The translations under genes and the position numbers were made by a program. Below are positions 1-30,313 of a stretch of 64,000 nucleotides of DNA, one piece after another; within the stretch, counting starts at the first letter, position 1; the number at the start of each line of letters is the position of its first letter. A model generated the notes under the pieces. That model had not been told where the DNA came from, did no database searches, and worked only from the letters and a program-made list of their open reading frames with translations. Source of the DNA: Verrucomicrobiia bacterium (GTDB lineage: Bacteria > Verrucomicrobiota > Verrucomicrobiia > Verrucomicrobiales > DEV007); contig JAUICH010000004.1 in NCBI GenBank assembly GCA_030427505.1, positions 1 to 64,000 of the forward strand. The letters run 5' to 3'.

Positions 1-371
1 ACGATGCCGTTCGGGTTGATGAGGAAAAGGTTTCCGTTGGCCTGCAAGGCGCCGTGGATGGCGCTGGGATTGCCGGTCACCACGCGGTTCAACGCGGCGG
101 AATTGGCGCCCGGCTGCAGGAATTGGGTCAACTCTCCGGGAGCGATGGAGAAGCTCTCCCAGTTGATGATGGCCTTGTCCGAATGCTGCAGAATGGAGAG
201 GTGGCCGTCGAGTCCTTCACCTATCTCCGCCAGGCCATTGACCACCACGCCACCGGCGGGATTGGCCCGGAGAGGAGCGGACGGAAGAGTAACCAGACAG
301 GGGGCCAGAAGCGCGAGGACGACAGACTTGAATACACGTCTCCTGCGCATTGCGGTGAGCAACGTAGTCAT
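1..371 (-). CDS. N-terminus of a second filamentous-haemagglutinin-type secreted protein (cut by window edge)
   Basis: Reading leftward from the ATG at 371 gives about 123 residues that run off the window. Residues 1-36 form a signal peptide with a basic start (RRRR) and a hydrophobic core, and cleavage is likely after LRA, before NPAGG. The remainder matches the N-terminal secretion domain of the giant protein at 902-18106: by my count 73 of 87 mature residues are identical, including HLSILQHSD and the NPNGI motif typical of the haemagglutination-activity/TPS domain. The two signal peptides differ. An in-frame ATG at 437 would add 22 residues before the signal peptide and is less likely; one at 350 is also possible. 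The protein is probably exported to the cell surface. Its repeat region lies outside the window. Confidence 0.85.
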   Translation of the reverse strand, partial: MTTLLTAMRRRRVFKSVVLALLAPCLVTLPSAPLRANPAGGVVVNGLAEIGEGLDGHLSILQHSDKAIINWESFSIAPGELTQFLQPGANSAALNRVVTGNPSAIHGALQANGNLFLINPNGI

Positions 372-846: not shown

Positions 847-901
847 TTCCTATATATATCGAGCAGTAACGCGCTACCTGGGAAAACCTGACAAGCTGCT
901 A

Positions 902-3900
902 TTACTCTCCTTCCGTGGTGGAGGTATCTCCTTCATCAGTAGGCTGAGCATTGGCCAGTTCGCGCACCAGAATCTCCAGCTGCTGCCTGAGCAGTTCGCT
1001 GGCGCCACCAGGCAGAGCACTGCTATACGGGGCGGGCCAGTAGTAGGTACCCAGGCCAACTCCCCCATTGCCAAACACTTCGTAGCTGCTCCACCCGTCC
1101 GGATTGTTGTAGAGCGGGTAGTTGGTCAAGAACGTCCGGGTGAAAGCACCGGGTTCGTTCCAGCCAGTCTTGCTCTTGTCATCGAAGAGGTCCAGCAGAG
1201 CGTGGAGGGCTTCGCTGTCCGGGAAGTCGTCCAACATGTTCCGAAGTTCCGGCCCTACCGGGGTCCAGTTGTCATCGATGGTCCCCGCCGTGAAGCCCAC
1301 GGTGCCGCCCTGGATGAGGAACAGACCGTTTCCAAAGGTGGAGGAACCGCTGACCGCCACGACCACGCTATCCGGCTCGCCATCCGTGCCCGGAATGATC
1401 GCCACGGGAACAATGTTGACCCCACCGGTGCTGCCGGAGGAGCTACCCGTTCCGGAAGTCGTGCCTCCGGTGCCTCCCGTGCCGCCAGTTCCCCCGGTAC
1501 CTCCGGTACCGCCGGTTCCCCCCGTGCCGCCTGTGTCGATGGGCTCGCCACCGAATTCATTGTAGTACAGGGAGTAGTTACCCAGCGTGGTGTCGTAGTT
1601 CGCGGTATCTTCCGTAACCAGATTTTCGTCGAAGTTCTCTTCCCAGCGGGGGTTCGAAGTGCCGTCACTGACGCCGCTGAAAGCGTTCACCAGGTCCACG
1701 GAGTCCGCCAAGTTGAAATGCTCGCCCAGACTGAAGAAGAACTCGTCAGAGCGTTGGGCATCGGCGGGAGCCGGTGTGCCGATGTAAGCGGTGCCATTGA
1801 GCTGAGTGCCGGCCGCCATGAGGTTGTTCACCCGGAGAGGCAGGTAGAACCGGAGTTCGCCCGAGGGCGCACTGGCGAAGACCGTATCCGCATCCGTCGT
1901 GAGCACCCCGGTACCCGTGACTTCATCCGTCCGGCTGACGGCGATGAAGGTATTCCCGGACACGGCGGTAGCTCCACCCAACCCAGGATCGACGTGTCCG
2001 ATCATTCCGCCCGTGGAGGTCAGGTCCTCGCCCGTGGTCACCTGGATGTCCCCGGAAAGGTTCCCGGTTCCCCCTGAGCCAAAGAGTTGATCGTAGAGCT
2101 GATCGCCGTGTCCGATCTTGGAATAGGCATCGGTACCGGTGCCACGGGTCAAGGTGAGGTCCGCGCCCGCGTCCACGAAGATATTGCCACCCTTGTCTCC
2201 GTCGCTCAGGGTGCCGCCGCTGCCGATCTGCGTGTAGTTGTTGGCGCCATGCGAGCCGGAGATCAGCGTGAGGTTGTTCCCCGCGGACACGAAGATATCG
2301 CTGTTGGAGTCCGCGTTGGCGTTCAGGCCGTTGTTGCCGATCTGGGCATAGGCGTTGTTGACGAACTTCTCATCCGAAGCACTCAGGACAATGTCGTTTC
2401 CGGCGGCGACTTTCACATAGTCCGCCGGGGTGCCCAGGGTAAGATCCCCCGCCGTACCGCGAATGCCATTGTCGCTCCGGGCGCCACCCTGCCCGATCTG
2501 GACAAAGGTGTTCGACTCCGTGCCGGCCATCAAGTTGACGTCTTCACTGGCGTAAACGTCGATGTTCCCCGTCTTGTCTCCACCACTCTGGAACCCGCCG
2601 TGGCCAATGTGAGCGTAGGTCTCGTTTGCGTCCTCCCCTCCGTTCATCGTGAGTGACCCGTCCGTCACCATCACGGTAATGTCGCCGGAGTCGTCACCGG
2701 CCCGGCCGTCGTAAGCGCCGTGACCCAAGCGGGCCGCCGTGCCGTCCGTGGTGCCGCCAATGAGTTGCAGACTGGTGCCTGCCACAACGGTGATACTGCC
2801 GTCGTTAATCCCCGCCTGATTGACGCCGCCGTGACCGAACTGGGCCCAGGAGTCACGCCCACTCAAGCCCTGGATCAGCACATCACCAGAAGCCGTCAAG
2901 GACATGAGCCCCGTGCGTGAACCGGAATGCCCCGTGCCGCCGTGCCCAATCTGGGACCAGGCGGTGCGGCCCAGCCCCCCCAGAATGCTGACGTTCGAAG
3001 CCTGATGAATCAGGATATCGCCAGTCAGGTTGCCGGAGGTGATATCGCCCCCGTGACCGATCATGGCATAGGCACCCGGAGTGCCGCCCCCCTGCACCAG
3101 GATGGTTCCACCGCCTGTGCCAGCGCCGGCGAAACCATTGTTGATATTGATAGTCCCAGAGTGGTTCCCGTCGGCGTCGTAACCGCCATGCCCCACCTGA
3201 CCTTGCGCTTGGGAACCCGTGCCGCCGCGAACACTAATGTCATTCAGCGCGCTGAGTGAAATTTCCCCGCTCTGGTCGTTGCGGTTGTGATAGCCCCCAT
3301 TGCCCACCAGGGCCGCGGCCTGTTCCCCAGCGCCGCCCTGCACCGTGATGCTACCGGAGGTGCTGAGAATCTCTATGTTCCCCGAATTTCCAGTGTTGCC
3401 GGGCCCGGCATTGTTCGGTTCGTCGGATTCCCAACCGCCATTCCCGATCTGGGCGGATTGAGCGATGCTGTTGCCGCCCATGACCGTCACCCCAAGGTCG
3501 CCGGAAACGCTGATATTGGCATTGTGATCGCCGCGGGCATTGTAGCCGCCATTCCCGATCTGAACGTAGCTGCGCAAGCCGGCGGTCTCCGTGGGATTGA
3601 AGGGATTCACCCCCGTCAGGATCACATTGCCTCCAGCATTCACGGAAATCTCATCCGGGTCCGCGGAATCCCCAAAGTCTCCCGTGGAGAAAGCGCCGCC
3701 ATGACCGATCTGAGCAAAGCTGTAGCGGTCCGTGGAGTTGTCCGTGGTTTGCCGCCCGGCGATGACATAGACATTGCCGGTCGTGGCTTCCACATAGATG
3801 TCACCATTGTGATCGCCATTGGTCGAACGGCCGCCATGCCCCAGCAGCGCCCAGTGGTTGGTGCCGAAACCGCCACCCACGCCGGAGATGTTTTCATTCC

Positions 3901-6900
3901 CCCCGATGAAGGAAATGTCTCCAGCGCTCGACGTTACGGAGATATCGCCATTGTGCCCGATGCCGTTACGCAGGACCGCGTTGTCTCCCGTGACGTCGGC
4001 ATCCCAGCCTCCGTGGCCGAGCTGGGCGGAAATGTTCCCGTCAATATTGGAAGGCGCCCCCTCATCCGTCAGAGTACCCGCGATAAACAGCACGGAACCT
4101 TCCGCGGAGACGGTAATGTTACCGGTATTCCCTACGGCATTGTTCGGCGCGCCGGACCGGGACCCGTAACCGCCGTGCCCCATCTGGGTGTAGTTTACAT
4201 TCCGGTCACCCGCGACAAAGACGACGCCCGCGCTGACGACTCCCAAGGGGGTCGTGATGTTTGATTGGGTGGCGGACACGTCGATGGATCCGGAGTAGTT
4301 CCCGTCCGCTTCGTAACCGCCGTGGCCCAGCTGACTGTAGGCGGCGGAATCTCCGTCCGCCTCGCCAATACCCGACTGGAAGTGGATCCGTCCGCCGGTA
4401 GTGGCCACATGAATGTCGCCGATGGCGTTCTGGCGATTACCATAACCGCCGTGACCGAGTTGCGTGTAGGTGACCCCCTGGTTCCCCGCCGTGAAGACGA
4501 TGTCTCCCCCGGCGTCCACGTCGATGTTACCCACGTTGCCGTCTGCGGCCAGGATGGAAGCCGCGTTGGTGGTGTTCAGCCAGTCCGCCTCGTAACCACC
4601 GTGGCCGAGCTGGCTGTAACCACGATCCGAATCCGTGCCTGAAGTGAACTTCACGCCGCCGAGGGCATCCACGTCAATGTTACCGCTCTGGTAACCGCGC
4701 GCGCCGTAACCACCGTTGCCCAGTTGGGCATAGGAGTTGGCGGTGTTGGATTGCTGATCGAACTGACCGGCGGTAAAGACGATCTCGCCACCGCTGTTGA
4801 CGGTGATGTTACCTGAGTGATCGCCCTGAGTGGAGTGCCCGCCGTTACCCAACTGAACATAGGTGGTTTCCCCCCGGTCTTCCAGGGGGTTCGCCGAACC
4901 GTCGGGTCCGATGAAGGTGATGTCACCACCCGTGCCGCTGCTGACCGAAATGTCACCCAAGGTGCCGAGCAGGACGGCCCCGCCGTTTGTGCCGGTACCC
5001 GTGGTGGGCGTAAGGGGGTGGACCCCCGCGTCGTCCGCCGGGATATTCGGTGTGGGCGAACCCCCGTCTGGCGCCGGCACGATCCAGCCGAAGTCCGCGA
5101 AGTCCGTAATGTTGCGGAAATGACTGTCCCGGCCGCCATGGCCGATCTGCGCGTAGTTGTAATAGCCGCGCCGGCTCCAGACGGACCCGACATCGTCTCC
5201 GCCGTGAGCCTTGAAGTGAACGCCGTTCGCTCCGTAAACCGTAATGGCGCTGACTGAGGCGTCTCCGCTGCCGTCGTGCCCGTGGTTACCATAGGCGTTG
5301 TACCCGCCGTGACCGATTTGGGCGTAACTCTCGGTTACCTTGGCCGCCGTGGTGAAGTCGATCGAGCCGCCGGCATAGACATCTATCTTGCCATTGTGAC
5401 CGCTGCCGTTCGCGGAGTTCGGGTCGGCATCGTAGCGGAAGCCACCATGACCGATCTGCACATAGGAGGCGCCACCAAAAGTTCGCGCGGCATCCTGATA
5501 GCCATCGAAGCCGGTGAAGGTGATGTTTCCATCGGCATGCACGTCGATGTCGCCCTGGATGGTGCCGGGGAAGTAGGTCTGGTTGCTGGCGTAACGGCGA
5601 TCGAAGACTCCAGATCCGGAGTCCTGGTCTTCCTGGAAAGAGGATCCGTGTTCGTTGCGGCCGCCGTGACCGATCTGCGCGTACGAACTGCTCGGCCCGC
5701 CCAGGAAGGTAATGGCCCCGCCGGCCGTCACATCGATGCTCCCGGTGTGGCTGCCGGAAGAGTAGATCCCACCGTGCCCGATCTGGGCGTAGTGGCTGCT
5801 ACCCTGGAAGTCGTCCGCCGAGCCGGTATCGATTCCGCGCGCGTCAAAGGTGATGCTGCCAGCCGTCGCTTCCACCTCGATATTGCCTTCATGATCTCCA
5901 GACGTGTAGATACCGCCGTTCCCCAGGTGGGCGTAGTTCTCCGTCCAGTTCCCTGAGGAGAAAACAATATCGCCAGTAGAGGTGGTGACGGAGATATCCC
6001 CCTTGTTCCCGATGCGCTCAGCGGCAGTGGGGGCCGCCTCGTTAAAGAGATCGAAGTTCGGATTATCCGCGTCGAAGCCGCCATTCCCGAGTTGGGCATA
6101 GTTCCGGCGGCCGTTGTTGCCTCCGGTAAAGGTGATGTCATCCACGGCATTGATTTCGATGTCCCCGACATGATCGCCCCGGGCGTTGTAGCCGCCGTGG
6201 CCGAGTTGGGCGTAGGAGGCATTGTCCCCCCACTCCACCGGACCCGCGCCAGCGGCGAAGGCGATGGCTCCATCCGCGTTGATCGTGATCTTGCTCACCG
6301 CGCCGTCCCGGGTTCCATCGTCCCCCTGGTTCCCGTTGGTGGCGTAACCGCCATGACCGAGTTGCGCGTAGGAAACGGTTTCCAGGCCCGCGGTAAAGGT
6401 CACGTCACCGCCATTCGTCGTGGTGACAGAAATGGTGCCGGTATTCCCCAGATCGCCCACGCCACCGTTGTTGGGATTGTCAGCGTCGTAACCGCCATTG
6501 CCCAGTTGGGCGTACTGGATGTCTTCATTACCGCCCAGGAAAGTCACGCCACCGGCTCCGGCGCTAACGGTGATGTTGGCGTGGTGATCGCCCCGCGTGT
6601 TGTAGCCGCCGTTACCCAACTGCGCGTAGCTGCGGTTGCCGCCGAGGGCCGTGGGATTGTAGGGATTCAGGGTGCTGAAGAGAACTCCGCCTCCGGCAAC
6701 AACCGTGATCTCATCCGGGTTGTTCACGTCGCCAAAGTTACCCGTGGAGAACGCACCGCCGTGACCAAGCTGCGCGAAGTTATACTTGTCGCTCGAATTG
6801 TCTTCAGTCTGACGGCCAGCGATGAAGTTCACGTCGCCCAAAGTGGCTTCCACATGAATGTCTCCATTGTGATCGCCACTGGAACTGCGGCCACCGTGAC

Positions 6901-9900
6901 CCAGGATGGCGAAGTGATCCCGCCCGTGACCGCCGCCAATGCCGGTGATGGTCTCATTCCCACCGAGGAAACTGATATCGCCCTCATTGGAAATAACGCT
7001 GATGTCGCCACTGTGGCCCTCGCCGTCATACAGGGTAGCCCCGTCGCCGGTCACGTCCGCGTCCCAGCCGCCGTGGCCCAGCATGGCGTAGAGGCGCCCG
7101 TCTTCGTCGGTGGCATTGGTTTCCGTCATGGTGCCGGCGGCAAAGATGATGGAGCCGTCCGCCTGAACGGTGATGTCACCCGTGAATCCACTGGACACGC
7201 CCGGGGCGCCGGAGCGGACACTGCGGCCGCCGTGGCCGAGCTGCGTGTAGTTGTCCCGCCGGTCTCCCGCCGTGAAGACCACACCCGCGTCAATCAGGCC
7301 CGCCAGAGTGAGCAATTCCGAAGAGGTGGCGAAGACCTCGATGGCGCCTTCGTAGTTCCCGTCCGCCTCGTAGCCACCGTGGCCGAGCTGGGAATAAGAC
7401 TCCGTGTCGCCATCATCCACCCCGATGGTGGAGGCAAACTGAACCCGGCCACCCGTTGTGGCGACGTGAATGGCGCCGCTGGCATTTTGCTTGGTATTGG
7501 CGCCGCCGTGACCCAGTTGGGTGTAGGTATGCACCTGGTCGCCCGCGGTGAAGATAATGTCTCCGTCCGCGTCCACGGAAATGTCCCCAACGTTGCCGTC
7601 CGCCGCCAGGATGGTGGCGGCATCGCTGGTGTTCAGCCAGTCGGCATCGTACCCGCCGTGACCGAGCTGGCTGTAGCTTTCGCTGGAACGTCCGGAGGTA
7701 AAGGTAATGTCCCCGCCGGCATCCACGTCGATATTACCACTATGGTAACCCCGGGCGCCATAGCCGCCGTGGCCTAGCTGGGCATAGGCGTTGTCGTTGT
7801 CGCCATCAGCCGCACCGGTCACGTTAGGCATCTGATTGGCGGTGAACTCGATGGATCCGCCGCTGTTCACGGTAATGGAGCCCTTGTGATCGCCAGAGGT
7901 GCCGTATCCGCCATTCCCCAGCTGCACGTAGCCGTTGGCGGAGCGGTCTTCCTGCCCGCTGCCCGCGGTACCATCCGCGCCGCGGAAGATGATGTCGCCG
8001 CCGTCACCCGTGGTGACGCTGATGTTCCCGATGGTGCCGAGGATCTCCGCGTTGGTGATGACACCGGTTTCTCCCACGCCACCGTTCGCCGCCGGCGGAG
8101 CGGTGCCGGTCCCGACACTGGGAGTCAGCGGGTGATAGCCGGTATCCGCTTCGGCTACGTAGGGATCCGGCGGCGGCGCGCCGCCGTTGTTGGCATGCTC
8201 GTCGCCATACCAAGCCGGGGTGGCAAAGTCGATCTGGCGGTTGTCCGATTCGCGGCCGCCATGACCGATCTGGACGTAGTTGTAGTAGGCTCGCTGGCCC
8301 CAGTTGTTGTTGATGTTGTCCCCCCCATGGGCGAGCGCCACGATGCCGTCCTCCGCGTGAACGTTGATGGCGTTGTTCGCCGCCATGGTCGCGTCATCCA
8401 CGCCGGAGCCGTCGTGACCGTGATTCCCAAAGGCGACATAACCGCCATGACCGATCTGGGCGTAGGCCTCACTGACCCGCGCGCCGGAATCAATGGAAAG
8501 CAAGCCACCGGACAGGACCGTGATCATGCCGTTATGACCGGTTCCATTCGGAGAGTTCGGATCCGCGTCGAACTTGTAGCCGCCATTGCCGATCTGCACG
8601 TAGGTGCCGCCGCTGGAGGAGCCGGTGTAGGCGTCGAAGCCCTTCATCGTCACGTTTCCACCCGCGTTTACATAAATGTCCCCAGACGCGGTACCTGGAT
8701 AATAACGGTCGCTGCTCAAACGGCGGCGGTTGAACATCCGGTCGGTCCCGTTGCTGACCTCGTCATAGGAATCGTGATTGTTCCGGCCGCCGTTCCCAAT
8801 CTGGGCGTAAGAGCTGCCCCGCGCCGCGTAGAGAGACACTGCGCCATCCGCGTTGACGCTGACGTCGCCCGTGTGGTCGCCTGAGGAATAGAGGCCTCCA
8901 TGACCGAGATGAGCATAGTGGTTTGAATTCGTCAGGGCGTCGTTCAGTCCAGCGTCAAAAATGACATCACCGCCGCTACTGGCCACCGTGGTGGCGGTGA
9001 CGGAAATGGTACTGCCGATGCGCATTCCAGTGACGGGGTCCAAGTCGGAAATGCCGTCGTTGTCGGTGTCCTTGGCGCCATGGTCGCCGTCCGTGGAATA
9101 GCCGCCATGACCGAGCTGGACATAGGCATCAGAACCGCCGTCCGTGTAGAAGTGAACGTCGCCACCCGTGGCGGTGACGGTGATGTCGCCAAAATTACCC
9201 AGCCGTTCTTCATCCGTGGGCATGCCGCGGCCTCCGCCGTCCACCGAATTGGTAAAGTACCCGTAAGGCCAGCCGTCGGGATTGGGATTGTCCGCGTCCC
9301 AGCCGCCATGGCCCAGCTGGGCATAGCCCCGATAGGCGCCGCTCGCGTGGAATTCAATGTCTCCCACCGCGCTGACCAAGATGTCTCCCGAGTGATCGCC
9401 CCGGGCCTGATAACCGCCGTGGCCGAGCTGGCTGTAACCTTCATCCCTGCCCCAGGTATTGGTCAGTCCGCCGGCGGCAAAGTTGATGGAGCCCGAGGCA
9501 TTCACGGTCACGTTTCCGCTGTGGTTCCCTTCGGTACCACGCCCGCCGTGGCCCAGCTGCGTGTATGAGTCGTTCCCCGAACCGGAAGTGAAGTTCACGT
9601 CCCCGCCGCCGGTGGTGGTAACCATGATGTTGCCTGAGTTCCCCTCGTCGCCCACGGGGGCGCCATTTGGATCGTCGGCATCCCAGCCACCGTGGCCGAG
9701 TTGGGCCCAGGTTTGGGTCTCGTCTCCACTCGTGAAATTCACCCCGCCCGCACCGGCGGACACGGTGATGTCGCCACTATGCTCGCCCCGCGAACCGGTA
9801 CCGCCATTCCCCAAGTGGGCGAAGTTTTGGCTCGCTCCACCGCCACCGGTGAAGTTCACGCCACCCGCACCCGCGCTCACATGGATCGGAGCGGAGTGAT

Positions 9901-12900
9901 CGCCGGAGAAGTTATAACCGCCCAGCCCCAGTTGTGCGAAGTTCTGATTTCCAGTAGCGCCTCCCTTGAAATTGATGGCGTTCCCCGCCGTCACCCGGAT
10001 TTCGTCCGCTTGGAGATCGCCATTCGCGCTGATACCCCCATGGCCAAGAAGCGCATAGGAGTAGATATCGTTGCTATTGTCATCCGTATCGTTCCCGGCG
10101 GTGAAATTGATACTGCCGGTCGTGGCTTCCACGGTGATGGACCCGAAGTGATCGCCACTGGTGAAGGTACCGCCGTGACCCAGGTGAGCCTCGTGGAAAC
10201 GGCCGCCACCACCGCCGATGCCCATGATGGGATCGTCCGCGGCGCTGATGCCACCGATGAAGCTGATGTCTCCCGCGGAACTGGTCACGGAAATGTCTCC
10301 GGAATGCGCCCAGTCGTCCTCACCGGTATGACTGGCATCCTCACCCGCCGGGTCGGCATTGTAGCCGCCGTGGCCCAGCCGGGCGGAGAGGCGGGCGTCT
10401 TCATCCGTGGAGGAGTCTTCCGTCAGTGTGCCCGCGATGAAGTAGATGCTGCCGTCCACGTCCACGGTGATGCTGCCGGTATGCCCTTCCGGCGTGCCGG
10501 GCGAACCGGTGCGGGAGTTGGTCCCGCCGTGACCCAACTGAGCGGAACTATCCCGCCGGTCTCCCGCGGTGAACAGGAGGCCCACGTCTTCCGCTCCCGC
10601 GCCAAAGTCAAAAGACGAAGACGTGGCCGATACGTCGATGTTACCGTGCTGAGCGGTATCCGACTCGTAACCGCCATGGCCCAGTTGGGCATACGCTTCC
10701 GTGTCGCCATCGTCCACGCCCAGACCCGCGGTGAACTGAATGCGGCCGCCGGTCGTCGCTACGTGGATGTTGCCATCGTTGCTGGAACGGTTGTGCGCTC
10801 CGCCGTGGCCCAACTGGGTGTAGGTCCGGTACTTCTCGCCGGCGGAGAAGATGATGTCTCCGCCCGCGTCCACAAAGATGTTTCCTTCATTTCCCGGAGA
10901 TGCCTGAATCGTGGTGGGATCGGATGAGTTGGGATCATCCGAATCAAAGCCCCCATGGCCAAGCTGGCTGAAATCGTGATCGTCCGAGCCGGAGGTAAAC
11001 AGGATGGCGCCCGCGGCATCCACGTCGATGATCCCCTGGTGATCGCCACGGGAGGTATAGCCACCGTTACCCAGCATGGCGAAAGCATCGCTGTGAGAAT
11101 CCGGATTGGTATCTCCCGGATCCATGGCGCCGGTGAACGTGATCGTTCCCCCGGAGTCCACCGTGATGTTGGCGATGTGGCTGTCTCCACTGGAGTGCCC
11201 GCCATGGCCGAGCTGAACATAGGTCCGGTAGTCCGCGCCGCCGATGAATCTGATGTCGCCTCCGGCATTCACATTGATGTCACCGGTAAATCCGGTGGTG
11301 TCATTGGTCACCCCCACGCTGGAAGCCCGGGTATCCTCGTCGCGGACTTCGTAACCGCCATGCCCCAGTTGGGCGAAAGAGGCATTGGCGCCGTCCACGG
11401 AATTTCCGCCCAGGAATTCAATCTCTCCGGCAGCATCCACATCAATGGCGCCGCTCATGTTCCCCGCGATGCGGATGCCGCCATGGCCGACGTGGGCGAA
11501 GGCGGCGTCGTGGTTCCCCGTGCTGTTCGAGTCCCCCTGCACGGCGTGCATGATCAAGTCTCCCCCGCTGTCCACCGTGATGCCGCCCGTGTGATCCCCG
11601 TGGCTGCGGTCGCCGCCGTGGCCAATCTGCACGTAGGCTTCCTGCGCGCGATTGCCGATGGTGCCCTCGGCTTCGGAACCCGCCAGCATCTGGATGTCAG
11701 CCCCGTCGCCGTTGGTCCGCACCGTGATGCTGCCCGAGAACCCGCGCACCGTTGCAAAAACCGCTCCGCGATAGTTCCCATCCGCGTCGTCATCCACAAA
11801 CGGAGTCAGGGGATGCATGCCCGTATCATCAGGATTTCCGGTCGGGCCGGTGGTCACCTGCAGGACCGCGAAGCCATCGTTGGCGCTGCCGTCAAATTCA
11901 TCCACGTAGTTGAAACCCGAACGCCAGCCGCCGTGACCGATCTGGGCAAAGTTCCGGCTGCCCCCGGCATCCGATCCCCAGGCGGAAAACCGATCCGAAC
12001 CGGTGGCGTAGAAGGAGATACCGGTCTCGGCCTCCACCAGGATGTCGCTGCCGCTGGTGCCGCCCCCGTGGTTCCCGAAGGTCTCGGTGCCCCCATGACC
12101 GATCATGGCGTGCGCATTAAATCCATCGCCCGCCCGGAACGAAATGGCGCCTGCCTGGCTGATGACCGTGATGTCCCCATTGTGGCCGTCGCCGTTCACC
12201 GAAGTGGCGTCGGGATTGGCGTGATACTGGTAGCCGCCGTGACCGATCTGCACATAGGCCCGGTCGCCATTCTCATTGCCGCCGCGGAAGGTAATGTCGT
12301 TCACCGCGTTTACGACAATGTCTCCTTTTAGAGTGCCCGGGCGGAACTGGCGGTTGGAACCATAGCGCTTGGTTTCTCCCGACGGACTGCCCCAGGTGGC
12401 GGTGGAAGTACCGTGTGAATTGCGCCCACCGTGGCCGATCTGAGCTTGGGAATCATGCCGGCCCGCGGTGAAGTTGATCTCATTCGCGGCATACACCGTG
12501 ATGTCTCCGGTGATGTCTCCATTAGAGTAGTAGCCACCGTGGCCGATTTGAACCGGGGTGTTGCTTGCGGTGTTGCCCTCGCCGTTGGCGTCGAAGTTGA
12601 TGGAACTGGTGCCGTTCAGCGCGGCGTGCGTCGTTTCGTCCACCCCGGCGAGCACGGTGATGTCTCCGCCATGGTCTCCCGCGGTTTCGCGGCCGCCATG
12701 ACCGATCATGGCAAAGGTGTTGCTGCCGGTGCCGCCCTTGAAATCGATGTTCCCGTCCAGGGTCTGCACAAAGATGTTGCCCGTATGACCGGTGGTATCG
12801 GGCTGGCCAAGATCGAAGTTAAACGGGTCGTCGCTGTCATACGGCTCCACGGCTTCCCAGCCGCCGTGCCCCAGTTGGGCGTAAGAAACATTCGACTGGT

Positions 12901-15900
12901 TGCTGTCCACGCTCAGGTCTCCCATACCGCCCCAGAACTCAATGTTGCCATTCGCCGTCACCCGAATCTCGCCCTTGTGGTCGCCCCGCGCGGAGCGCCC
13001 GCCGTTTCCGAGCTGAGCCTGGCTCTCCCTGCCTTTGCCGCCTTCGAAGTGAATATTCCCCGTGGCATCCACCGAGATTACGTCCGTGGCCAGGCCCAGG
13101 TCGCCGTACGCTTGGGTGTTGCTGTGCCCCAGTTGGGCGAAGTTGTATTTTTCGACGCTATTGTCCGTGGTGAAGCCACCGCCAAGGAACTCAATATTTC
13201 CGGCGTTGGTCACATTCCCTCCTCCGTCACGAGTACCGGCGGACACGGTAATGTTTCCGTGATGGTCGCCGCTGGCGTAGATGCCGCCGTGCCCCAGGAG
13301 CGCATAGTGGGTGCGTCCGTAGCCGGTTCCTTCGCTGTCGAGGTTCTGGTCGCCGCCCTGGAAGTAGATGTCGTTGTCCGAATGAACTGAGATGTCTCCG
13401 TAGTGACCCACGCCATTGCCGGAGTTATCCGTATCGGTGTCAGAGGCGTCATAACCGTATCCCCCGTGGCCCAGTTGGGCGGTAAGACGGCCGTCTTCAT
13501 TGGTGGCCAAGAATTCCTCGGTTCCCGCCACAAAGCGGATGTCTCCTTCGGAATCGATCGTGATATCTCCGAAAACGCCCACCGGATCCGCGTCGCCCTG
13601 CCCGGACCTGCCGCTACGGCCCCCGTGCCCCAATTGCACGGAGTTGTCCCGCACGTTGCCCGCCCGGAAATTCAGGCCATAACCATTGATGTCCGAACCC
13701 GCCGTGATGGAGATGGCTCCCGATGTATTTCCGTCGGCGTCAAAACCGCCGTGCCCCAGTTGGGCATAAGACTGATAGTCCGTGTCATCGATGCCAATGC
13801 CGGCCAGGAAAGAGATGCCCCCTCCCGCGCCGATGGTGATACCCCCGGAGTGAGCCCCCTGATTGTACGCGCCGCCTAACCCGAGCTGAGCGTAGGTGTT
13901 CTGCCAGTTCCCAGCCTGGAAGAGAATGTCGCCCGTGGTGTCGAGGAAGATATTTCCGACATTCCCAGGGGTATCGTTGGCGGCATTGTTAGGATTGTCG
14001 GCTTCGTAGCCGCCATGGCCCATCTGGACGTAGCTCCGGTCCCGGTTGCCTTCGCGTCCCGTGCTTCCGGTGGGCCCGATGAACTTCACGTCGCCCGCCG
14101 CATCCACGTCGATGATGCCGTTGTGATCGCCCCGGGCGCCGTAACCGCCGTGACCGATCTGGGCGTAGGCTTCGACACCGCGGTCCTGGTCAGTGATCAC
14201 CCCGGCGCTGTCCCGGGTTTTTCCGAGAATGCCGTCTCCGGAAGTGTCGAAGAGAATGCCTCCGCCCTGGGCATCCACTTTGATGTTACCGGAGAAGTCC
14301 CGGTTATTGCTGTGGCCGCCGTGGCCGATCTGAAGGTAGTCCCGGTCGGATACTTTGCCCAGCGTCTGGAAGGTAATGCCGCCACCCGCCGTGACGTTGA
14401 TGTCGTCATCGACCACTGTACTGTCCATATTATAGCCTCCATGGCCAATCTGCGCGTAGCGGTCCCACGCGTACCAGTAGCCCCGCTGAATCGAGCCGCC
14501 GGCCAGTTGCGAATTATACCAACTTTCATAATCTGTAGACAGGTTCATCGCGTCCGGGTCCTTGGCATCCCGGATGGAGAAGGTAATATCTCCGCCAGAC
14601 GTCACATCGATCTGGGAATCGCCATTGATGTTCCCCTGCGTGTCCCGGCCGCCGTGGCCGATCTGCGCGTATTCGTAAAACCAGGTCCCAGAGGTAAAGG
14701 AAATGGGGCCATTGGTGGCTTCGACCTCGATGGTGCCTTCCATGTCACCATCCGCGTTGATGCCCCCGTGGCCGATCTGGGCAAAGCTGTAGCCATAGCC
14801 CCAGTCGCGCGCGGTCACGGCGTCTTCTCCCCCCTTAAATTCAATACTTCCGTTTACGGTCGAAACCTTAATGTTCCCCGTCTTGTCTCCACGCGGGTGG
14901 TATCCCCCGTGACCGATCTGAGCATAGTCGCCATGATTGTTCCCCGCCGTGAAGCGGATGCCGTCCTCAGCCTGCACGGTGATGCTTCCGGTGATATCGC
15001 CATTGTCGTGATTGGGCTGCGAACTGAAGAATCCGCCGTGGCCGATCTGCATGGCGCTGCGGCCCAGGCCCCAGACATTGGTCGTGGGCCGGTTGTAGCC
15101 ATCAAAGGTAATCTCACCGCCACTCGTTACCTCGATGTTGCCGCTCAGGGTCTGATCGGAGAAGTTCTGGTTCCCTTCCGCCACCCAGCCATGACCGATC
15201 TGACCGGGGGAGTCCCAGCCAAGCCCGGCGTCAAAGTCAATGTCGCCCCCGGCTTCGACGGTGATGTCTCCATTGAAAGATCCAAACTGATAGGTGCCAC
15301 CATGACCGATCCGGGTGCCTCCCGTGCGGCTGGAGTTGTCATTACCTTTCATGATCAGATTCCCGTCCGTGCCAGTGAGGAGACCGGTGCGGACGGTGAT
15401 CGGCGCGTCCACGGGGTTAACCGCCACGTTGTCCGGCGTCACGATACTGTAGCCCGTCCGGCTGGCCGGTCCGCCATTGACCCCGCCGCTGGGCCGGTCG
15501 GTGTTGTTGAGGCCACCGTGACCGATCTGGACGTAGGAGTAATTTCCATTACCGGCGAAGCCGTCTACGTCGTCCAAGGCTTCGACCCGGATGGCGCCTG
15601 TCGCGCCGCTGCCAGCATCGCCGGCATGTAACACGGCCCCCTGGACGTTGCTGCCAGCATCAGACCACCACTCATTGGAACCCGTAACGCCATTGGGAGC
15701 GCCCGTGTCCCGGAAACCGATGTGAGCCCACCGGTTCCCGCCATTTCCGCCGCGCAGGTAAACGTCATACGCCGCGATGCTGGTCTCGCCATAACGGCTG
15801 CCGATTTCCACGGCGCGTGAAGAAATACGCCCGGCCGTGGCGTCCGTGTTGATGAAGATGCTGCCTTCGCCAAGGCCGTAGCTGGCAGTATCGTCGAAGA

Positions 15901-18106
15901 TATCGTCCATGGCGAAGAGCCCAGGCGTCAGCTGAGGCGTTTCCGGCCCAGGAAGCCCGGTCGATCCATCCCAGCCGGAAACCAAGTAGATGCCGCCGTC
16001 CCCCGCGTTCCGCACGTGAGCCTGGGCATAGATATCTCCTTCTGCCACGATCGCCAGCGTCCCGCTGGAATACCACTCCACGTCATTTAGAATGGTCAGA
16101 TTACCATCCTGACCGCTCAAACCTCCGGGATCGGACGTGGTGATAATGACATTGTTACCCAGTTGCAGCGACTGACTGAGAGCCACGTTGTCGATATTGA
16201 AGTTTGGCCCGGATGTCGTTCCGCCGGTGCCGATGGTCCCATTGTTAGGGTCCAGCAACAAAGTCCCCGCCGGACCGTTGGTGGCGGTGGTGTCCACGAA
16301 ACCATTGAACCCGAGGTTCTGGGCTCCGGAGACCTCCACAAACCCACCGGCGTCGACGCCCGTGGCGCTGATGCTGCCCTCGAAAACCGTGTCACCGTCG
16401 GACCAGACGATAACCGTACCGCCGTCGCCACTGCCCGTGGCGTTCGCATTAATCTGCGCGCCGGGCGCGACGGTGGTCCTGGACGAGTTCCTCACCGTGG
16501 AATCCTTGCCTTGAAAACCACCGCCAATCTTGACCGTGCCGCCACCGGTGTTGCCGCTAGCGTTGACGTTCGCGGTGGAGGTCAGTTCCACGATGTCACC
16601 TTCCACGACAACCAGACCGCCATTTGCTTCGGCGCTGCCAGCGTCCAGGGTCCCGCTCACCGTGGCCTGGTTCTCACCCGAAATGACGATGCTCCCCCCG
16701 TCTCCGGAGGTTCCCGCCGCTGTCACAATGCCGGCGACAGTCACCGTGTCTTCACCGCGAACGGAAACGGAACCGCCCGCCGCGCCGCTGGCATCCACAT
16801 TGGAAGAAGAGGCCAGCACCACGTCACCGCCCTGCACCATGATCTGGCCGCCCAAGCCATCCCGGCTGGAGGCGCTGAGGTTACCCGCGACATTCACCGT
16901 GCTGTCCGCGGCTCCACCGACATAGACCGAGCCGCCATCGCCCGCGCCGCCGTTGGCACTGATGTTGGCCCCCGCGCCCACGTCGATTTTGCTGGATTCC
17001 ACCAGGGCGATGTCTCCCGCCAAGGGGTTGAAACCGATCTGCACCGAGCCGCCACCGCCTTCACCATTGGCGGTAAGGTTGGCGCCGCCGGGCACGTTTA
17101 TCTCTTCACCACCGATCACGATGGATCCCCCCAGGCCATCCCCCGTGCCATCGGCACGGATGTTACCGCCAGCGTTCACAATGCCACCAGCCCCGGCGTC
17201 GATGAAAATTCTCCCGCCGTCACCACTGGGCAGGGTGGCGACGATGTCACCGGTATTGTCAATCCGCCCGCCTTCTGCTTTCAAAAAGACGGATCCGCCG
17301 CTGTTCACGGCGCCCGTGGCGCGGATGGACCCCTGGTTATTGATCGCCAGCGCGTACATATTGCCGTGCGCTTTCAACTCCACGGCCGCCCCTTCGATGG
17401 AGCCGGTATTGAGAACTCCCGTTCCTCCGGCCACGCCCGCCGTGGGCCGAACGAACACTCGCTCGCCATTGGCGTCCGGCGCGGCGGAGATCAGCACTTC
17501 CTGACCCGCCGCCAGCCCCACGGTGCCGTTGACCGCAGTGATGGAACCAGCATTGTTGATGGTATGGGACACTAAGAAGACATCGCCCCCCACGGCATTG
17601 ATGCGGCCAAAGTTCGTGATGCCCGCGTCGCTCGCCCCACTGAAAAGCAGGTCGCCCCCAGCCAGGAACTGCTCGTTGCTCAGGTCCAACGTGGAAGCCA
17701 CAAAGCCATTTACATCCACGGAACCCGTCGCCCCCACGACGATTCCGTTGGGGTTGATCAAGAGGATCTTACCGTTGGCCTGCAGCGCCCCATGAATGGC
17801 CGATGGCGCTCCGGAAACGACCCGGTTCAGTGCCGCTGAATTCGCTCCTGGCTGAAGAAACTGCGTGAACTCTCCAGCTTCAATCGAGAAATTTTCCCAG
17901 TTAATGATGGCCCTGTCTGAGTGCTGCAGGATGGAAAGATGTCCATCGAGTCCATCCCCAAATTCGGCGGCCCCGTGAACCACCACGCCACCGGCGGGAT
18001 TTGCTCTGGCCGCGCCCGGCAGGAAAATCAGACTGGGTAGAAGACCCGCCAGGGCGAGGGTTTGGAGGAGGGAGTTGCCGCGAAAAAGCGGTAGGAGCGC
18101 ACTCAT
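902..18106 (-). CDS. Giant secreted repeat protein with haemagglutinin-type N-terminus and about 90 IGHGG units
   Basis: This single unbroken reading frame gives about 5,734 residues. I chose the ATG at 18106 because a clear signal peptide starts there (MSALLP..., cleavage after ARA at residue 35); the frame stays open back to 18181. Residues 36 to about 300 resemble the TPS/haemagglutination-activity domain, with NPNGI at about 118-122. Beta-strand-rich Gly/Asn/Thr sequence follows, then roughly 90 units of 35-80 residues built on the pattern [YF]-[AVST]-Q-[IL]-G-[HN]-G-G, (S)GDHxG, [DN]I-x-V, DI-x-F-x-[AG]-G. After the repeats come a Thr-Gly-Gly linker (1461-1533 in DNA) and a C-terminus of about 150 residues ending in an acidic Thr/Glu tail. 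I see no cysteine after the signal peptide. No autotransporter barrel and no TpsB-type transporter gene were seen in the window. It is probably a fibrillar adhesin or surface-layer beta-helix protein; that function is inference. Confidence 0.9.
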   Translation of the reverse strand: MSALLPLFRGNSLLQTLALAGLLPSLIFLPGAARANPAGGVVVHGAAEFGDGLDGHLSILQHSDRAIINWENFSIEAGEFTQFLQPGANSAALNRVVSGAPSAIHGALQANGKILLINPNGIVVGATGSVDVNGFVASTLDLSNEQFLAGGDLLFSGASDAGITNFGRINAVGGDVFLVSHTINNAGSITAVNGTVGLAAGQEVLISAAPDANGERVFVRPTAGVAGGTGVLNTGSIEGAAVELKAHGNMYALAINNQGSIRATGAVNSGGSVFLKAEGGRIDNTGDIVATLPSGDGGRIFIDAGAGGIVNAGGNIRADGTGDGLGGSIVIGGEEINVPGGANLTANGEGGGGSVQIGFNPLAGDIALVESSKIDVGAGANISANGGAGDGGSVYVGGAADSTVNVAGNLSASSRDGLGGQIMVQGGDVVLASSSNVDASGAAGGSVSVRGEDTVTVAGIVTAAGTSGDGGSIVISGENQATVSGTLDAGSAEANGGLVVVEGDIVELTSTANVNASGNTGGGTVKIGGGFQGKDSTVRNSSRTTVAPGAQINANATGSGDGGTVIVWSDGDTVFEGSISATGVDAGGFVEVSGAQNLGFNGFVDTTATNGPAGTLLLDPNNGTIGTGGTTSGPNFNIDNVALSQSLQLGNNVIITTSDPGGLSGQDGNLTILNDVEWYSSGTLAIVAEGDIYAQAHVRNAGDGGIYLVSGWDGSTGLPGPETPQLTPGLFAMDDIFDDTASYGLGEGSIFINTDATAGRISSRAVEIGSRYGETSIAAYDVYLRGGNGGNRWAHIGFRDTGAPNGVTGSNEWWSDAGSNVQGAVLHAGDAGSGATGAIRVEALDDVDGFAGNGNYSYVQIGHGGLNNTDRPSGGVNGGPASRTGYSIVTPDNVAVNPVDAPITVRTGLLTGTDGNLIMKGNDNSSRTGGTRIGHGGTYQFGSFNGDITVEAGGDIDFDAGLGWDSPGQIGHGWVAEGNQNFSDQTLSGNIEVTSGGEITFDGYNRPTTNVWGLGRSAMQIGHGGFFSSQPNHDNGDITGSITVQAEDGIRFTAGNNHGDYAQIGHGGYHPRGDKTGNIKVSTVNGSIEFKGGEDAVTARDWGYGYSFAQIGHGGINADGDMEGTIEVEATNGPISFTSGTWFYEYAQIGHGGRDTQGNINGDSQIDVTSGGDITFSIRDAKDPDAMNLSTDYESWYNSQLAGGSIQRGYWYAWDRYAQIGHGGYNMDSTVVDDDINVTAGGGITFQTLGKVSDRDYLQIGHGGHSNNRDFSGNIKVDAQGGGILFDTSGDGILGKTRDSAGVITDQDRGVEAYAQIGHGGYGARGDHNGIIDVDAAGDVKFIGPTGSTGREGNRDRSYVQMGHGGYEADNPNNAANDTPGNVGNIFLDTTGDILFQAGNWQNTYAQLGLGGAYNQGAHSGGITIGAGGGISFLAGIGIDDTDYQSYAQLGHGGFDADGNTSGAISITAGSDINGYGLNFRAGNVRDNSVQLGHGGRSGRSGQGDADPVGVFGDITIDSEGDIRFVAGTEEFLATNEDGRLTAQLGHGGYGYDASDTDTDNSGNGVGHYGDISVHSDNDIYFQGGDQNLDSEGTGYGRTHYALLGHGGIYASGDHHGNITVSAGTRDGGGNVTNAGNIEFLGGGFTTDNSVEKYNFAQLGHSNTQAYGDLGLATDVISVDATGNIHFEGGKGRESQAQLGNGGRSARGDHKGEIRVTANGNIEFWGGMGDLSVDSNQSNVSYAQLGHGGWEAVEPYDSDDPFNFDLGQPDTTGHTGNIFVQTLDGNIDFKGGTGSNTFAMIGHGGRETAGDHGGDITVLAGVDETTHAALNGTSSINFDANGEGNTASNTPVQIGHGGYYSNGDITGDITVYAANEINFTAGRHDSQAQIGHGGRNSHGTSTATWGSPSGETKRYGSNRQFRPGTLKGDIVVNAVNDITFRGGNENGDRAYVQIGHGGYQYHANPDATSVNGDGHNGDITVISQAGAISFRAGDGFNAHAMIGHGGTETFGNHGGGTSGSDILVEAETGISFYATGSDRFSAWGSDAGGSRNFAQIGHGGWRSGFNYVDEFDGSANDGFAVLQVTTGPTGNPDDTGMHPLTPFVDDDADGNYRGAVFATVRGFSGSITVRTNGDGADIQMLAGSEAEGTIGNRAQEAYVQIGHGGDRSHGDHTGGITVDSGGDLIMHAVQGDSNSTGNHDAAFAHVGHGGIRIAGNMSGAIDVDAAGEIEFLGGNSVDGANASFAQLGHGGYEVRDEDTRASSVGVTNDTTGFTGDINVNAGGDIRFIGGADYRTYVQLGHGGHSSGDSHIANITVDSGGTITFTGAMDPGDTNPDSHSDAFAMLGNGGYTSRGDHQGIIDVDAAGAILFTSGSDDHDFSQLGHGGFDSDDPNSSDPTTIQASPGNEGNIFVDAGGDIIFSAGEKYRTYTQLGHGGAHNRSSNDGNIHVATTGGRIQFTAGLGVDDGDTEAYAQLGHGGYESDTAQHGNIDVSATSSSFDFGAGAEDVGLLFTAGDRRDSSAQLGHGGTNSRTGSPGTPEGHTGSITVDVDGSIYFIAGTLTEDSSTDEDARLSARLGHGGYNADPAGEDASHTGEDDWAHSGDISVTSSAGDISFIGGISAADDPIMGIGGGGGRFHEAHLGHGGTFTSGDHFGSITVEATTGSINFTAGNDTDDNSNDIYSYALLGHGGISANGDLQADEIRVTAGNAINFKGGATGNQNFAQLGLGGYNFSGDHSAPIHVSAGAGGVNFTGGGGASQNFAHLGNGGTGSRGEHSGDITVSAGAGGVNFTSGDETQTWAQLGHGGWDADDPNGAPVGDEGNSGNIMVTTTGGGDVNFTSGSGNDSYTQLGHGGRGTEGNHSGNVTVNASGSINFAAGGLTNTWGRDEGYSQLGHGGYQARGDHSGDILVSAVGDIEFHASGAYRGYAQLGHGGWDADNPNPDGWPYGYFTNSVDGGGRGMPTDEERLGNFGDITVTATGGDVHFYTDGGSDAYVQLGHGGYSTDGDHGAKDTDNDGISDLDPVTGMRIGSTISVTATTVASSGGDVIFDAGLNDALTNSNHYAHLGHGGLYSSGDHTGDVSVNADGAVSLYAARGSSYAQIGNGGRNNHDSYDEVSNGTDRMFNRRRLSSDRYYPGTASGDIYVNAGGNVTMKGFDAYTGSSSGGTYVQIGNGGYKFDADPNSPNGTGHNGMITVLSGGLLSIDSGARVSEAYAQIGHGGYVAFGNHGHDGSGVDDATMAANNAINVHAEDGIVALAHGGDNINNNWGQRAYYNYVQIGHGGRESDNRQIDFATPAWYGDEHANNGGAPPPDPYVAEADTGYHPLTPSVGTGTAPPAANGGVGETGVITNAEILGTIGNISVTTGDGGDIIFRGADGTAGSGQEDRSANGYVQLGNGGYGTSGDHKGSITVNSGGSIEFTANQMPNVTGAADGDNDNAYAQLGHGGYGARGYHSGNIDVDAGGDITFTSGRSSESYSQLGHGGYDADWLNTSDAATILAADGNVGDISVDADGDIIFTAGDQVHTYTQLGHGGANTKQNASGAIHVATTGGRVQFASTIGVDDGDTESYSQLGHGGYEADGNYEGAIEVFATSSELLTLAGLIDAGVVFTAGDRRDNYTQLGHGGRSVRSGAPGVSSGFTGDITVQADGSIIFAAGTMTETNATDEDGRLYAMLGHGGWDADVTGDGATLYDGEGHSGDISVISNEGDISFLGGNETITGIGGGHGRDHFAILGHGGRSSSGDHNGDIHVEATLGDVNFIAGRQTEDNSSDKYNFAQLGHGGAFSTGNFGDVNNPDEITVVAGGGVLFSTLNPYNPTALGGNRSYAQLGNGGYNTRGDHHANITVSAGAGGVTFLGGNEDIQYAQLGNGGYDADNPNNGGVGDLGNTGTISVTTTNGGDVTFTAGLETVSYAQLGHGGYATNGNQGDDGTRDGAVSKITINADGAIAFAAGAGPVEWGDNASYAQLGHGGYNARGDHVGDIEINAVDDITFTGGNNGRRNYAQLGNGGFDADNPNFDLFNEAAPTAAERIGNKGDISVTTSTGDIVFSSGNWTENYAHLGNGGIYTSGDHEGNIEVEATAGSITFDARGIDTGSADDFQGSSHYAQIGHGGIYSSGSHTGSIDVTAGGAITFLGGPSSSYAQIGHGGRNEHGSSFQEDQDSGSGVFDRRYASNQTYFPGTIQGDIDVHADGNITFTGFDGYQDAARTFGGASYVQIGHGGFRYDADPNSANGSGHNGKIDVYAGGSIDFTTAAKVTESYAQIGHGGYNAYGNHGHDGSGDASVSAITVYGANGVHFKAHGGDDVGSVWSRRGYYNYAQIGHGGRDSHFRNITDFADFGWIVPAPDGGSPTPNIPADDAGVHPLTPTTGTGTNGGAVLLGTLGDISVSSGTGGDITFIGPDGSANPLEDRGETTYVQLGNGGHSTQGDHSGNITVNSGGEIVFTAGQFDQQSNTANSYAQLGNGGYGARGYQSGNIDVDALGGVKFTSGTDSDRGYSQLGHGGYEADWLNTTNAASILAADGNVGNIDVDAGGDIVFTAGNQGVTYTQLGHGGYGNRQNAIGDIHVATTGGRIHFQSGIGEADGDSAAYSQLGHGGYEADGNYSGSIDVSATQSNITTPLGVVSAGVVFVAGDRNVNYTQMGHGGYGSRSGAPNNAVGNTGNITVSAEGSVLFIAGTLTDEGAPSNIDGNISAQLGHGGWDADVTGDNAVLRNGIGHNGDISVTSSAGDISFIGGNENISGVGGGFGTNHWALLGHGGRSTNGDHNGDIYVEATTGNVYVIAGRQTTDNSTDRYSFAQIGHGGAFSTGDFGDSADPDEISVNAGGNVILTGVNPFNPTETAGLRSYVQIGNGGYNARGDHNANISVSGDLGVTVMGGNSIAQSAQIGNGGWESDEPNNAGPGNTGNSGNIEILSTSGSITVQGGAGEQAAALVGNGGYHNRNDQSGEISLSALNDISVRGGTGSQAQGQVGHGGYDADGNHSGTININNGFAGAGTGGGTILVQGGGTPGAYAMIGHGGDITSGNLTGDILIHQASNVSILGGLGRTAWSQIGHGGTGHSGSRTGLMSLTASGDVLIQGLSGRDSWAQFGHGGVNQAGINDGSITVVAGTSLQLIGGTTDGTAARLGHGAYDGRAGDDSGDITVMVTDGSLTMNGGEDANETYAHIGHGGFQSGGDKTGNIDVYASEDVNLMAGTESNTFVQIGQGGARSDNGIRGTAGDLTLGTPADYVKVAAGNDIVLSASDEKFVNNAYAQIGNNGLNANADSNSDIFVSAGNNLTLISGSHGANNYTQIGSGGTLSDGDKGGNIFVDAGADLTLTRGTGTDAYSKIGHGDQLYDQLFGSGGTGNLSGDIQVTTGEDLTSTGGMIGHVDPGLGGATAVSGNTFIAVSRTDEVTGTGVLTTDADTVFASAPSGELRFYLPLRVNNLMAAGTQLNGTAYIGTPAPADAQRSDEFFFSLGEHFNLADSVDLVNAFSGVSDGTSNPRWEENFDENLVTEDTANYDTTLGNYSLYYNEFGGEPIDTGGTGGTGGTGGTGGTGGTGGTGGTTSGTGSSSGSTGGVNIVPVAIIPGTDGEPDSVVVAVSGSSTFGNGLFLIQGGTVGFTAGTIDDNWTPVGPELRNMLDDFPDSEALHALLDLFDDKSKTGWNEPGAFTRTFLTNYPLYNNPDGWSSYEVFGNGGVGLGTYYWPAPYSSALPGGASELLRQQLEILVRELANAQPTDEGDTSTTEGE
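1461..1533 (-). repeat. Thr-Gly-Gly tandem repeat encoding a linker
   Basis: Short tandem repeats encode about seven TGG triplets followed by a Ser/Gly/Thr-rich stretch in the giant protein. Codons vary between triplets, so this is selected protein sequence rather than a fresh DNA slippage tract. It separates the repeat body from the C-terminal segment and is probably a flexible linker. Confidence 0.8.
3380..4724 (-). repeat. Higher-order repeat copy 4 inside the giant gene (partial)
   Basis: The first nine or so units of copy 4 track copy 3 closely. Beyond about 3380 the units become irregular and shorter and no longer follow the super-repeat order. There is no fourth HPLTP insert. The end coordinate is approximate. 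Confidence 0.6.
4725..7778 (-). repeat. Higher-order repeat copy 3 inside the giant gene (about 3.05 kb)
   Basis: Copy 3 is closest to copy 4. Shared features include YGARGYHSGN versus YGARGYQSGN, a DADWLNT loop, WDADVTGD, and an AGRQTxDNS segment in the same order. HPLTP falls near 5016. The closeness of copies 3 and 4 suggests the latest duplication was here. Confidence 0.7.
7779..11076 (-). repeat. Higher-order repeat copy 2 inside the giant gene (about 3.3 kb)
   Basis: Copy 2 repeats the unit order of copy 1 and copy 3. It includes a long non-repeat insert containing the signature HPLTP near 8128 (compare 11808 and 5016 in the neighbouring copies). It also holds a calcium-loop-like DTDNDGISDLDP stretch near 9041-9076 that the other copies lack. 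Confidence 0.7.
11077..14160 (-). repeat. Higher-order repeat copy 1 inside the giant gene (about 3.1 kb)
   Basis: This copy runs from the GHGG unit followed by YGARGDHNG to the equivalent unit at about 11070. The order of distinguishable units is the same as in copies 2-4: a DVDA unit, a unit with a long Asp/Asn loop, a G-V-D-D-(T/G)-D unit, a RSGRSG-type unit, an 'EDGRL' unit, an ALLGHGG unit and a DNS unit. Copy 1 has extra units absent from copy 3, and its individual units are the most divergent. Confidence 0.7.
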
Positions 18107-18407
18107 ATAGGTGGGGCAGGGAGGGTTGCGTGACTGGCACGACACCAGAACCCGATCCCTTCCACAGGGATCACCCACCACAAAAATAAACTCGGGGGAA
18201 GCTTTGGATTCTAATCGTCAGGCCAGCAACTATCCTATGATCTTCAGAAATCCTGTCAATTTGGGTCAAGCCTAAAACCCTGGAAATGGCTCAATAATGC
18301 GACCAAGTGTGCAGATTTTTGCCACAATGTGTCTCAGAGACAGGATTCTAAGGACACTTTATCTTACCGGTAAGGAAACCTTTTGACCGCCACGGCCCTC
18401 TCAATCT
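18107..18407. other. Intergenic region upstream of the giant gene
   Basis: About 300 bases lie between the giant gene's start and the stop of the M14 hydrolase gene, both on the minus strand. The region should contain the giant gene's promoter. It holds two short perfect inverted repeats, TGTCTC-A-GAGACA at 18330-18342 and CTTACCGGTAAG at 18363-18374. The second sits about 35 bases past the hydrolase stop but lacks a T-run. No gene was seen. Confidence 0.5.
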
Positions 18408-20436: not shown

Positions 20437-20499
20437 GGGGCCTCCTATGGGGGTGGAAATGGTAGCAGAGCGTTTGCTTTATTGTGGGTTCGTTTCGAA

Positions 20500-23372: not shown

Positions 23373-23382
23373 TACCCCCAGT

Positions 23383-26184: not shown

Positions 26185-26244
26185 AGCCCGGCGCCTTCCT
26201 TCCTTTTTTCCTAAGAAACCCTCCCCCATTCCGAGGACTCGAAC

Positions 26245-27675: not shown

Positions 27676-27717
27676 GGCCACGCTGCTTTCTTTCAACTCC
27701 CCAAAATTCCCCCATCC

Positions 27718-30060: not shown

Positions 30061-30313
30061 GGGCGTTTCTCTCCACAGCTTGAGGCAACCCCGCCATACT
30101 GTTGGAACAGCAAGGGAACCGAGAGAATGTCCTGCCCTCTCCAAAATTGCTGGAAGCGTGAGGCGGCGAAAGGTGGTCCTCGACCTCCGGGGTCCGAGCC
30201 GGACTGGCAGAGAACTCGGGAACCGGGCGAACGAGGTGGGGCGGAGAAGACTTCGCTCCATTCACAAACGAAAGAGACCGAGCCGCGCCAGTCGCATCAA
30301 TGTCCTAACAAAG

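Follow-up and report, generated by a model that had tools for sequence, protein, structure and literature searches.

The question raised by this locus is what kind of protein is encoded by a single open frame that runs on the minus strand from position 18181 to position 902 of the window (the whole 64,000-nucleotide stretch of a Verrucomicrobiales genome that was analyzed here) and that repeats one short, glycine-rich unit over most of its length. The ATG at 18106 is the first before a good signal peptide, and the span of the original prediction (902-18106, given with no strand) proved to be right. The product has 5,734 residues (~579 kDa, pI 4.34), with 11.4% D+E vs. 3.7% K+R and no cysteine; the GC content at codon positions 1, 2 and 3 of its gene is 61, 51 and 74%. 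Judging from its sequence, the gene encodes a two-partner-secretion (TPS) exoprotein of the TpsA type, with relatives that include the filamentous haemagglutinin of whooping cough, because its N-terminus consists of a predicted signal peptide followed by a TPS domain. The gene and its parts are laid out as follows:

902..18106, minus strand: giant TpsA-type gene (5,734 aa; the frame stays open upstream to 18181)
18002..18106, minus strand: signal peptide MSALLPLFRGNSLLQTLALAGLLPSLIFLPGAARA, then NPAGG (read by eye from the sequence)
17243..17941, minus strand: TPS secretion domain (PF05860, E=1.4e-26; TIGR01901, E=3.2e-21)
17744..17755, minus strand: NPNG motif within the TPS domain (at residue 118)
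15539..17242, minus strand: haemagglutinin-like region between TPS domain and repeats, conserved in paralogs and relatives (GWDGSTG segment)
2129..15538, minus strand: array of 90 GHGG units (36-116 aa each, core 37 aa)
1553..2128, minus strand: conserved cap module that closes the array (KIGHGD ... ELRFYLP ...)
905..1552, minus strand: Gly-rich linker and C-terminal domain (GWNEPG..., acidic tail), conserved among paralogs, mostly at low model confidence

The predicted signal peptide is a hydrophobic stretch that ends, as read by eye, in GAARA-NP, and the matches of the TPS domain to PF05860 and TIGR01901 both exceed the curated cut-offs of Pfam and NCBIfam. Its only sequence relatives in the PDB are HMW1 (2odl, E=4e-32), EtpA (8vba) and HxuA (4rm6). 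The role of the NPNG motif in the TPS domain is taken from PMC5422565, as is the observation that a second motif, NPNL, is dispensable in a second TpsA subfamily; a motif scan found NPNL neither in the giant protein nor in any of its paralogs, which groups the protein with the HMW1/HxuA/EtpA type and not with FhaB.

Within the first ~860 residues, the signal peptide and the TPS domain are joined by another beta-rich stretch; the last ~400 comprise the cap, the linker and the C-terminal domain. Between them, a strict pattern finds 90 consecutive units with motif positions from 886 to 5319 (P0001 numbering) and a 91st motif, IGHGD, at 5356 that opens a different module, in good agreement with the count of about 91 made by eye; the description of the protein as built almost wholly of such units went too far, as they fill only residues 882-5351 (78% of the protein) and both ends differ. 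Spacing between units in the giant protein is 36-116 aa (median 46.5), and across this protein and its relatives the mode is 37 aa (2,810 motif-to-motif spacings in the loci examined). The 37-residue core reads [AS]-Y-A-Q-[LI]-G-[HQN]-G-G-x-x-A-x-G-[DN]-H-S-G-x-[IV]-x-[VI]-x-A-x-G-D-[IV]-x-F-x-G-G-x-G-x-x, in which G6, G8 and G9 were imposed by the search pattern; among the positions free of it, conservation reaches 86% for G14, 91% for G18, 90% for G33 and 79% for Q4. In the giant protein itself, the H position is held by H in 67 units, N in 16, L in 2 and other residues in a few.

The unit had no convincing match among the models of Pfam, NCBIfam or PHROGs, so that the earlier statement that it belongs to no named family stands for the repeat and falls for the protein, which is a TPS exoprotein. 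A literature search for an IGHGG or GHGG repeat returned nothing relevant, and the literature on Verrucomicrobia combined with TPS, giant genes or haemagglutinin does not describe it. The only PDB matches of the unit profile, designed “Cake” propellers, contained almost no individually significant stretch and were taken as periodicity or composition; a beta-propeller is the less likely reading, as the structural models instead align lengthwise with beta-helices. RTX/haemolysin-type calcium-binding repeats, which are arrays of the nonapeptide GGxGxDxUx, were rejected (2 GGxGxD in 5,734 aa and no Pfam match).

The long beta-helix that had been proposed is borne out by AlphaFold models of two parts of the array, both of which are regular beta-solenoids: model 1 (residues 4992-5759, 10 units) has repeats mostly at pLDDT 93-97 and a pTM of 0.71, with the C-terminal ~200 residues at low confidence, and model 2 (residues 3465-3989, 11 units) has a mean pLDDT of 89.8 and a pTM of 0.92. 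Each modeled unit carries three main strands, near YAQL, ITV and DIxF. Foldseek alone found no significant match in the PDB for either model (best E 0.045 and 0.11), and the basis of the fold assignment is VIA-align together with secondary structure. Model 2 aligned best with Vag8 (Z 19.4, rmsd 4.0, 284 residues), and also with an SRRP adhesin (Z 15.9), HxuA (Z 14.8, rmsd 4.1), the HxuA TPS domain (Z 14.5, rmsd 2.9), an antifreeze beta-helix (Z 14.3) and Ag43 (Z 10.8); model 1 aligned with TibA (Z 13.8), pertactin (Z 13.5) and PL6 lyases. The alignments with PL6 lyases, tailspikes and the S-layer protein RsaA (Z 8.6) were counted as shared fold only. Since ~26 chain residues align per unit, one GHGG unit appears, in these models, to form one coil, and we infer that the repeat region is a right-handed parallel beta-helix, its handedness being taken from the alignment to right-handed structures (TpsA proteins and autotransporter passengers).

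Above the level of the unit there is a longer period: when the units are compared one with another, similarity is highest between those that lie 20 and 41 units apart, and local alignment places four super-repeat copies that start near residues 1338, 2366, 3465 and 4483 (P0001 numbering):

12542..14170, minus strand: super-repeat copy 1 (homologous core of the ~1,020-1,100 aa period; local alignment)
9449..11086, minus strand: super-repeat copy 2 (unit comparison, codon comparison, local alignment)
6215..7789, minus strand: super-repeat copy 3 (local alignment; 11-unit modeled segment)
3113..4735, minus strand: super-repeat copy 4 (62-65% identical to copy 3; 65% over 470 residues)

Codon-level comparison of three copies gave 54-65% protein identity, with dN of 0.31-0.44, dS of 1.26-1.57 (near saturation) and dN/dS of about 0.23-0.31, and third codon positions were the most changed. 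A dN/dS of about 0.24 between copies implies that the frame is a selected protein; on this codon evidence, the super-repeat is an old, selected protein sequence and no artefact. Copy 3 is about equally close to copy 4 (62%) and to a segment in another metagenome-assembled genome (MAG; also 62%), which suggests that the super-repeat either did not arise by recent local duplication or is undergoing homogenization. The architecture of the giant protein also recurs in dozens of other genomes, and this, taken together with the selection on the super-repeat copies, argues that the array is not a product of chance.

The cap module stands once, at the end, in most relatives and has several internal copies in modular ones (five in the 4,419-aa paralog), an arrangement that one would expect of a closing element for beta-helix segments. 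The C-terminal domain that follows (GWGEPG...YxSFxxFG, acidic tail) is clearly homologous among the large paralogs in a MAFFT alignment; phmmer with this domain as query matched only the query itself. Its presence throughout the large paralogs speaks against a variable toxin and is consistent with a role in anchoring or as a stop.

The giant gene is one of many. The genome (6.41 Mb, 56 contigs) yielded 14 TPS matches, 13 of them above cut-off and some cut by contig ends, and at least 10 repeat-bearing proteins that amount to 47,267 aa and 141.8 kb, or 2.2% of the genome; several of these paralogs are neighbors. Their open frames are:

Paralogs: 5,734 (window gene), 7,388, 8,266, 6,324 (cut) and 4,419 aa
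Further paralogs: 3,969, 4,407 (cut), 2,384, 2,214 and 2,162 aa

They differ strongly in loop lengths and are alike in being nearly free of cysteine and acidic (pI 4.05-4.5); the largest reaches 804 kDa. Directly downstream of the giant gene, another such exoprotein begins:

3..371, minus strand: start of a second TPS exoprotein gene (cut at the contig end)

The TPS domain of this second protein matches the one located at the C54 contig end with 100% identity over 87 aa, and a 122-base stretch is common to the ends of C54 and of the window contig, C45. Two other contigs, C41 and C48, start inside such TPS proteins with 127 identical bases. These identical ends point to a probable assembly break within TPS and post-TPS sequence that the genes have in common. 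A promoter and terminator scan of the gap downstream of the giant gene gave nothing above chance.

Six ShlB-type TpsB transporter genes are present in the genome and directly adjoin, among others, the genes of the 4,419-aa and 2,384-aa paralogs and of a 2,859-aa TPS exoprotein on contig C34. None was found on C45 (308 kb, cut just downstream of the giant gene) or on C41 and C48, the contigs that probably continue it, and the transporter of the giant protein is for this reason assumed to be shared; its TpsB may thus be one that serves other exoproteins as well. That one TpsB can serve two or more effectors is known, but it is not the rule (PMC5422565). At C34:65068-73644, the 2,859-aa exoprotein, which lacks a GHGG array, is followed by a TpsB gene (73648-75420) and then by the 7,388-aa GHGG protein, and the single TpsB there may serve both exoproteins. 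The modular paralog at C47:234154-247410 (minus strand) has its five cap modules set between GQGG arrays and a TpsB gene directly downstream; GQGG in place of GHGG forms a second repeat sub-type, found also at two further loci (L062 and L066).

Upstream of the giant gene, a minus-strand cluster (18408-21051) encodes an AstE/AspA-type deacylase (PF24827), a RimK-type ATP-grasp ligase (PF08443) and a putative ATP-dependent zinc protease (PF05618). Beyond it, on the plus strand (21223-31855), lie genes for an ECF sigma factor, a FecR/Laminin_G_3 protein, a PSCyt1/PSCyt2/PSD1 protein, a DUF1501 protein, a sulfatase fused to an alpha/beta-hydrolase (27718-30060) and a second sulfatase, together a typical PVC polysaccharide-desulfation cluster.

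The reading that we prefer, with a probability of roughly 0.7, is that the giant protein serves as the exoprotein, TpsA, of a type Vb (two-partner) secretion system and forms a very long secreted surface fibre, probably an adhesive one. The TPS domain and the VIA-align matches to TpsA proteins and autotransporter passengers bear out the secretion, and the possible adhesive fibre, of the original prediction; the adhesive role is argued by analogy with other TpsA proteins, as none of the domains found in the giant protein has a known ligand specificity. The many giant acidic paralogs might instead sheathe the cell as a secreted structural coat or biofilm-matrix fibre, with none of them an adhesin for a specific target. 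This we consider rather unlikely, although there are at least 10 such paralogs, of low pI and almost without cysteine, no variable binding domain was recognized, and the VIA-align matches include RsaA and the self-associating Ag43: the RsaA match is weak and reflects a common arrangement, and the strong differences in loop length among paralogs suggest different surfaces rather than one lattice. It is quite unlikely, too, that the GHGG unit represents a beta-helix coil class of its own, with an unbroken His/Gln/Asn ladder along one edge, and that the family's giant set is a dedicated surface organ (a hull of 50-90 nm fibres) whose specific recognition or ion-capturing role would have no counterpart in studied TPS systems.

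A metal-binding histidine ladder on one face of the helix, as had been suggested, has now become very unlikely. H does occupy position 7 in 70% of the 37-aa units (Q 15%, N 10%) and position 16 in 48%, in a protein that is very acidic, but N and Q freely replace H at position 7 (Q is the usual residue in the 4,419-aa and 2,384-aa paralogs), and H16, far from being positively coupled to H7, is commoner with Q or N at position 7 (112/174, 64%) than with H (191/547, 35%). As H7 and H16 form no conserved pair, metal coordination by both is unlikely as a general property, and the pattern fits a ladder of polar turns instead. That the protein is a contact-dependent inhibition or polymorphic toxin, a long stalk carrying a C-terminal toxin as in CdiA, is most improbable: the secretion route is alike and the size class is similar (180-650 kDa for CdiA, PMC5422565), but the C-terminal domain is common to the large paralogs instead of variable, the VENN motif is absent from every paralog, the downstream gene is another TPS exoprotein and not an immunity gene, and Pfam and NCBIfam scans found no toxin domains. 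A giant polysaccharide-active enzyme with the beta-helix fold of a lyase, matching a sulfatase-rich neighborhood, is scarcely credible; the window holds three sulfatase genes and VIA-align matches PL6 lyases and tailspikes at Z 10-13, but sequence identity is about 10%, beta-helices are common to many non-enzymes, and there is no lyase or hydrolase family match in Pfam or NCBIfam.

The secreted-fibre reading suggests the following course of assembly. The giant protein would be exported by Sec via its signal peptide, the TPS domain would lead its threading through an Omp85/TpsB pore, and the chain would fold at the cell surface, one coil after another, to form a fibre. A rise of 0.48 nm per coil is known for beta-helices, and with about 130 coils the fibre would be roughly 50-60 nm long. 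In it, the Q-[IL]-G-[HNQ]-G-G turns would stack their polar side chains into a structural ladder, the loops that lengthen some units (to as much as 116 aa) would bear a variable binding surface, and the C-terminal domain would have an anchoring or stop role. The cell would use the fibre as a surface adhesin or coat.

Compared with known systems, the giant protein resembles the TpsA proteins HMW1, EtpA and HxuA in its predicted N-terminal signal peptide, in a TPS domain with NPNG and no NPNL, and in the long, imperfect repeats from which its probable right-handed beta-helix is built, with repeats of a higher order as well (in EtpA, four of 228 residues, each made up of nine coils; PMC10284417). 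It differs from them in a unit that falls outside Pfam and NCBIfam, a coil of at least 37 aa with a GHGG turn, a super-repeat of ~1,020-1,100 residues (~20 coils), a dedicated cap module and the absence of an adjacent TpsB gene among those found; its paralogs, at up to 804 kDa, exceed the ~100-650 kDa stated for TpsA proteins (PMC5422565). With FhaB of Bordetella it shares the TPS pathway and, by the preferred reading, the long, adhesive beta-helical fibre, but FhaB belongs to the NPNL-bearing subfamily, and the Pfam Fil_haemagg repeat models miss the giant protein. The autotransporter passengers Vag8, pertactin, TibA and Ag43 are the best structural matches (Z 19.4 to 10.8), but they have their own fused barrel (type Va) and neither a TPS domain nor a GHGG unit. 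In size class, the protein is like the giant genes of bacteria and the huge proteins of the PVC group (PMC11573180, PMC12057145), a group noted for proteins of >5,000 aa; the passages found in those papers contain no description of the GHGG repeat. This is, then, a protein of a known kind, a TpsA exoprotein; what sets it apart is that its repeat is undescribed, its size unusual and its expansion within the family striking.

The GHGG repeat marks its Verrucomicrobiales family. In a set of 114 genomes from the order, each with a completeness of at least 90%, the unit profile matched 28: 27 from the same family (its own genome included) and one from another. A search of 84,980 species genomes confirmed 183 pattern-bearing stretches, and the 61 loci retrieved come mostly from Verrucomicrobiales MAGs; the longest open frames in relatives reach 8,293 aa. 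In an Opitutia locus (L058), a TpsB gene adjoins the GHGG protein. Other bins with the repeat are assigned to Alphaproteobacteria (including Roseibium), Gammaproteobacteria, Armatimonadetes, Planctomycetaceae, Anaerolineae and Ca. Theseobacter; for single contigs, binning errors are possible. In the gammaproteobacterial, Armatimonadetes and Roseibium bins (L047, L046 and L056), the repeat protein has a TPS domain and directly adjoins a ShlB-type TpsB gene; its occurrence in these three and in the Ca. Theseobacter bin (L061) reflects either horizontal transfer or misbinning. A scan of IMG/VR gave 21 pattern matches and no relatives, and the repeat was not found in plasmid records.

The surprise is a moderate one, because the logic of TPS secretion was already known. 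The GHGG giants offer a way to measure how TpsB pores handle passengers of >650 kDa, and a natural beta-helix coil of such regularity could be of use in repeat-protein engineering. For the bacteria themselves, the GHGG repeat covers a large region of protein space that had gone uncatalogued (2,810 spacings; 2.2% of this genome), and its description supplies a family and a fold for otherwise hypothetical giant proteins in uncultured Verrucomicrobiales.
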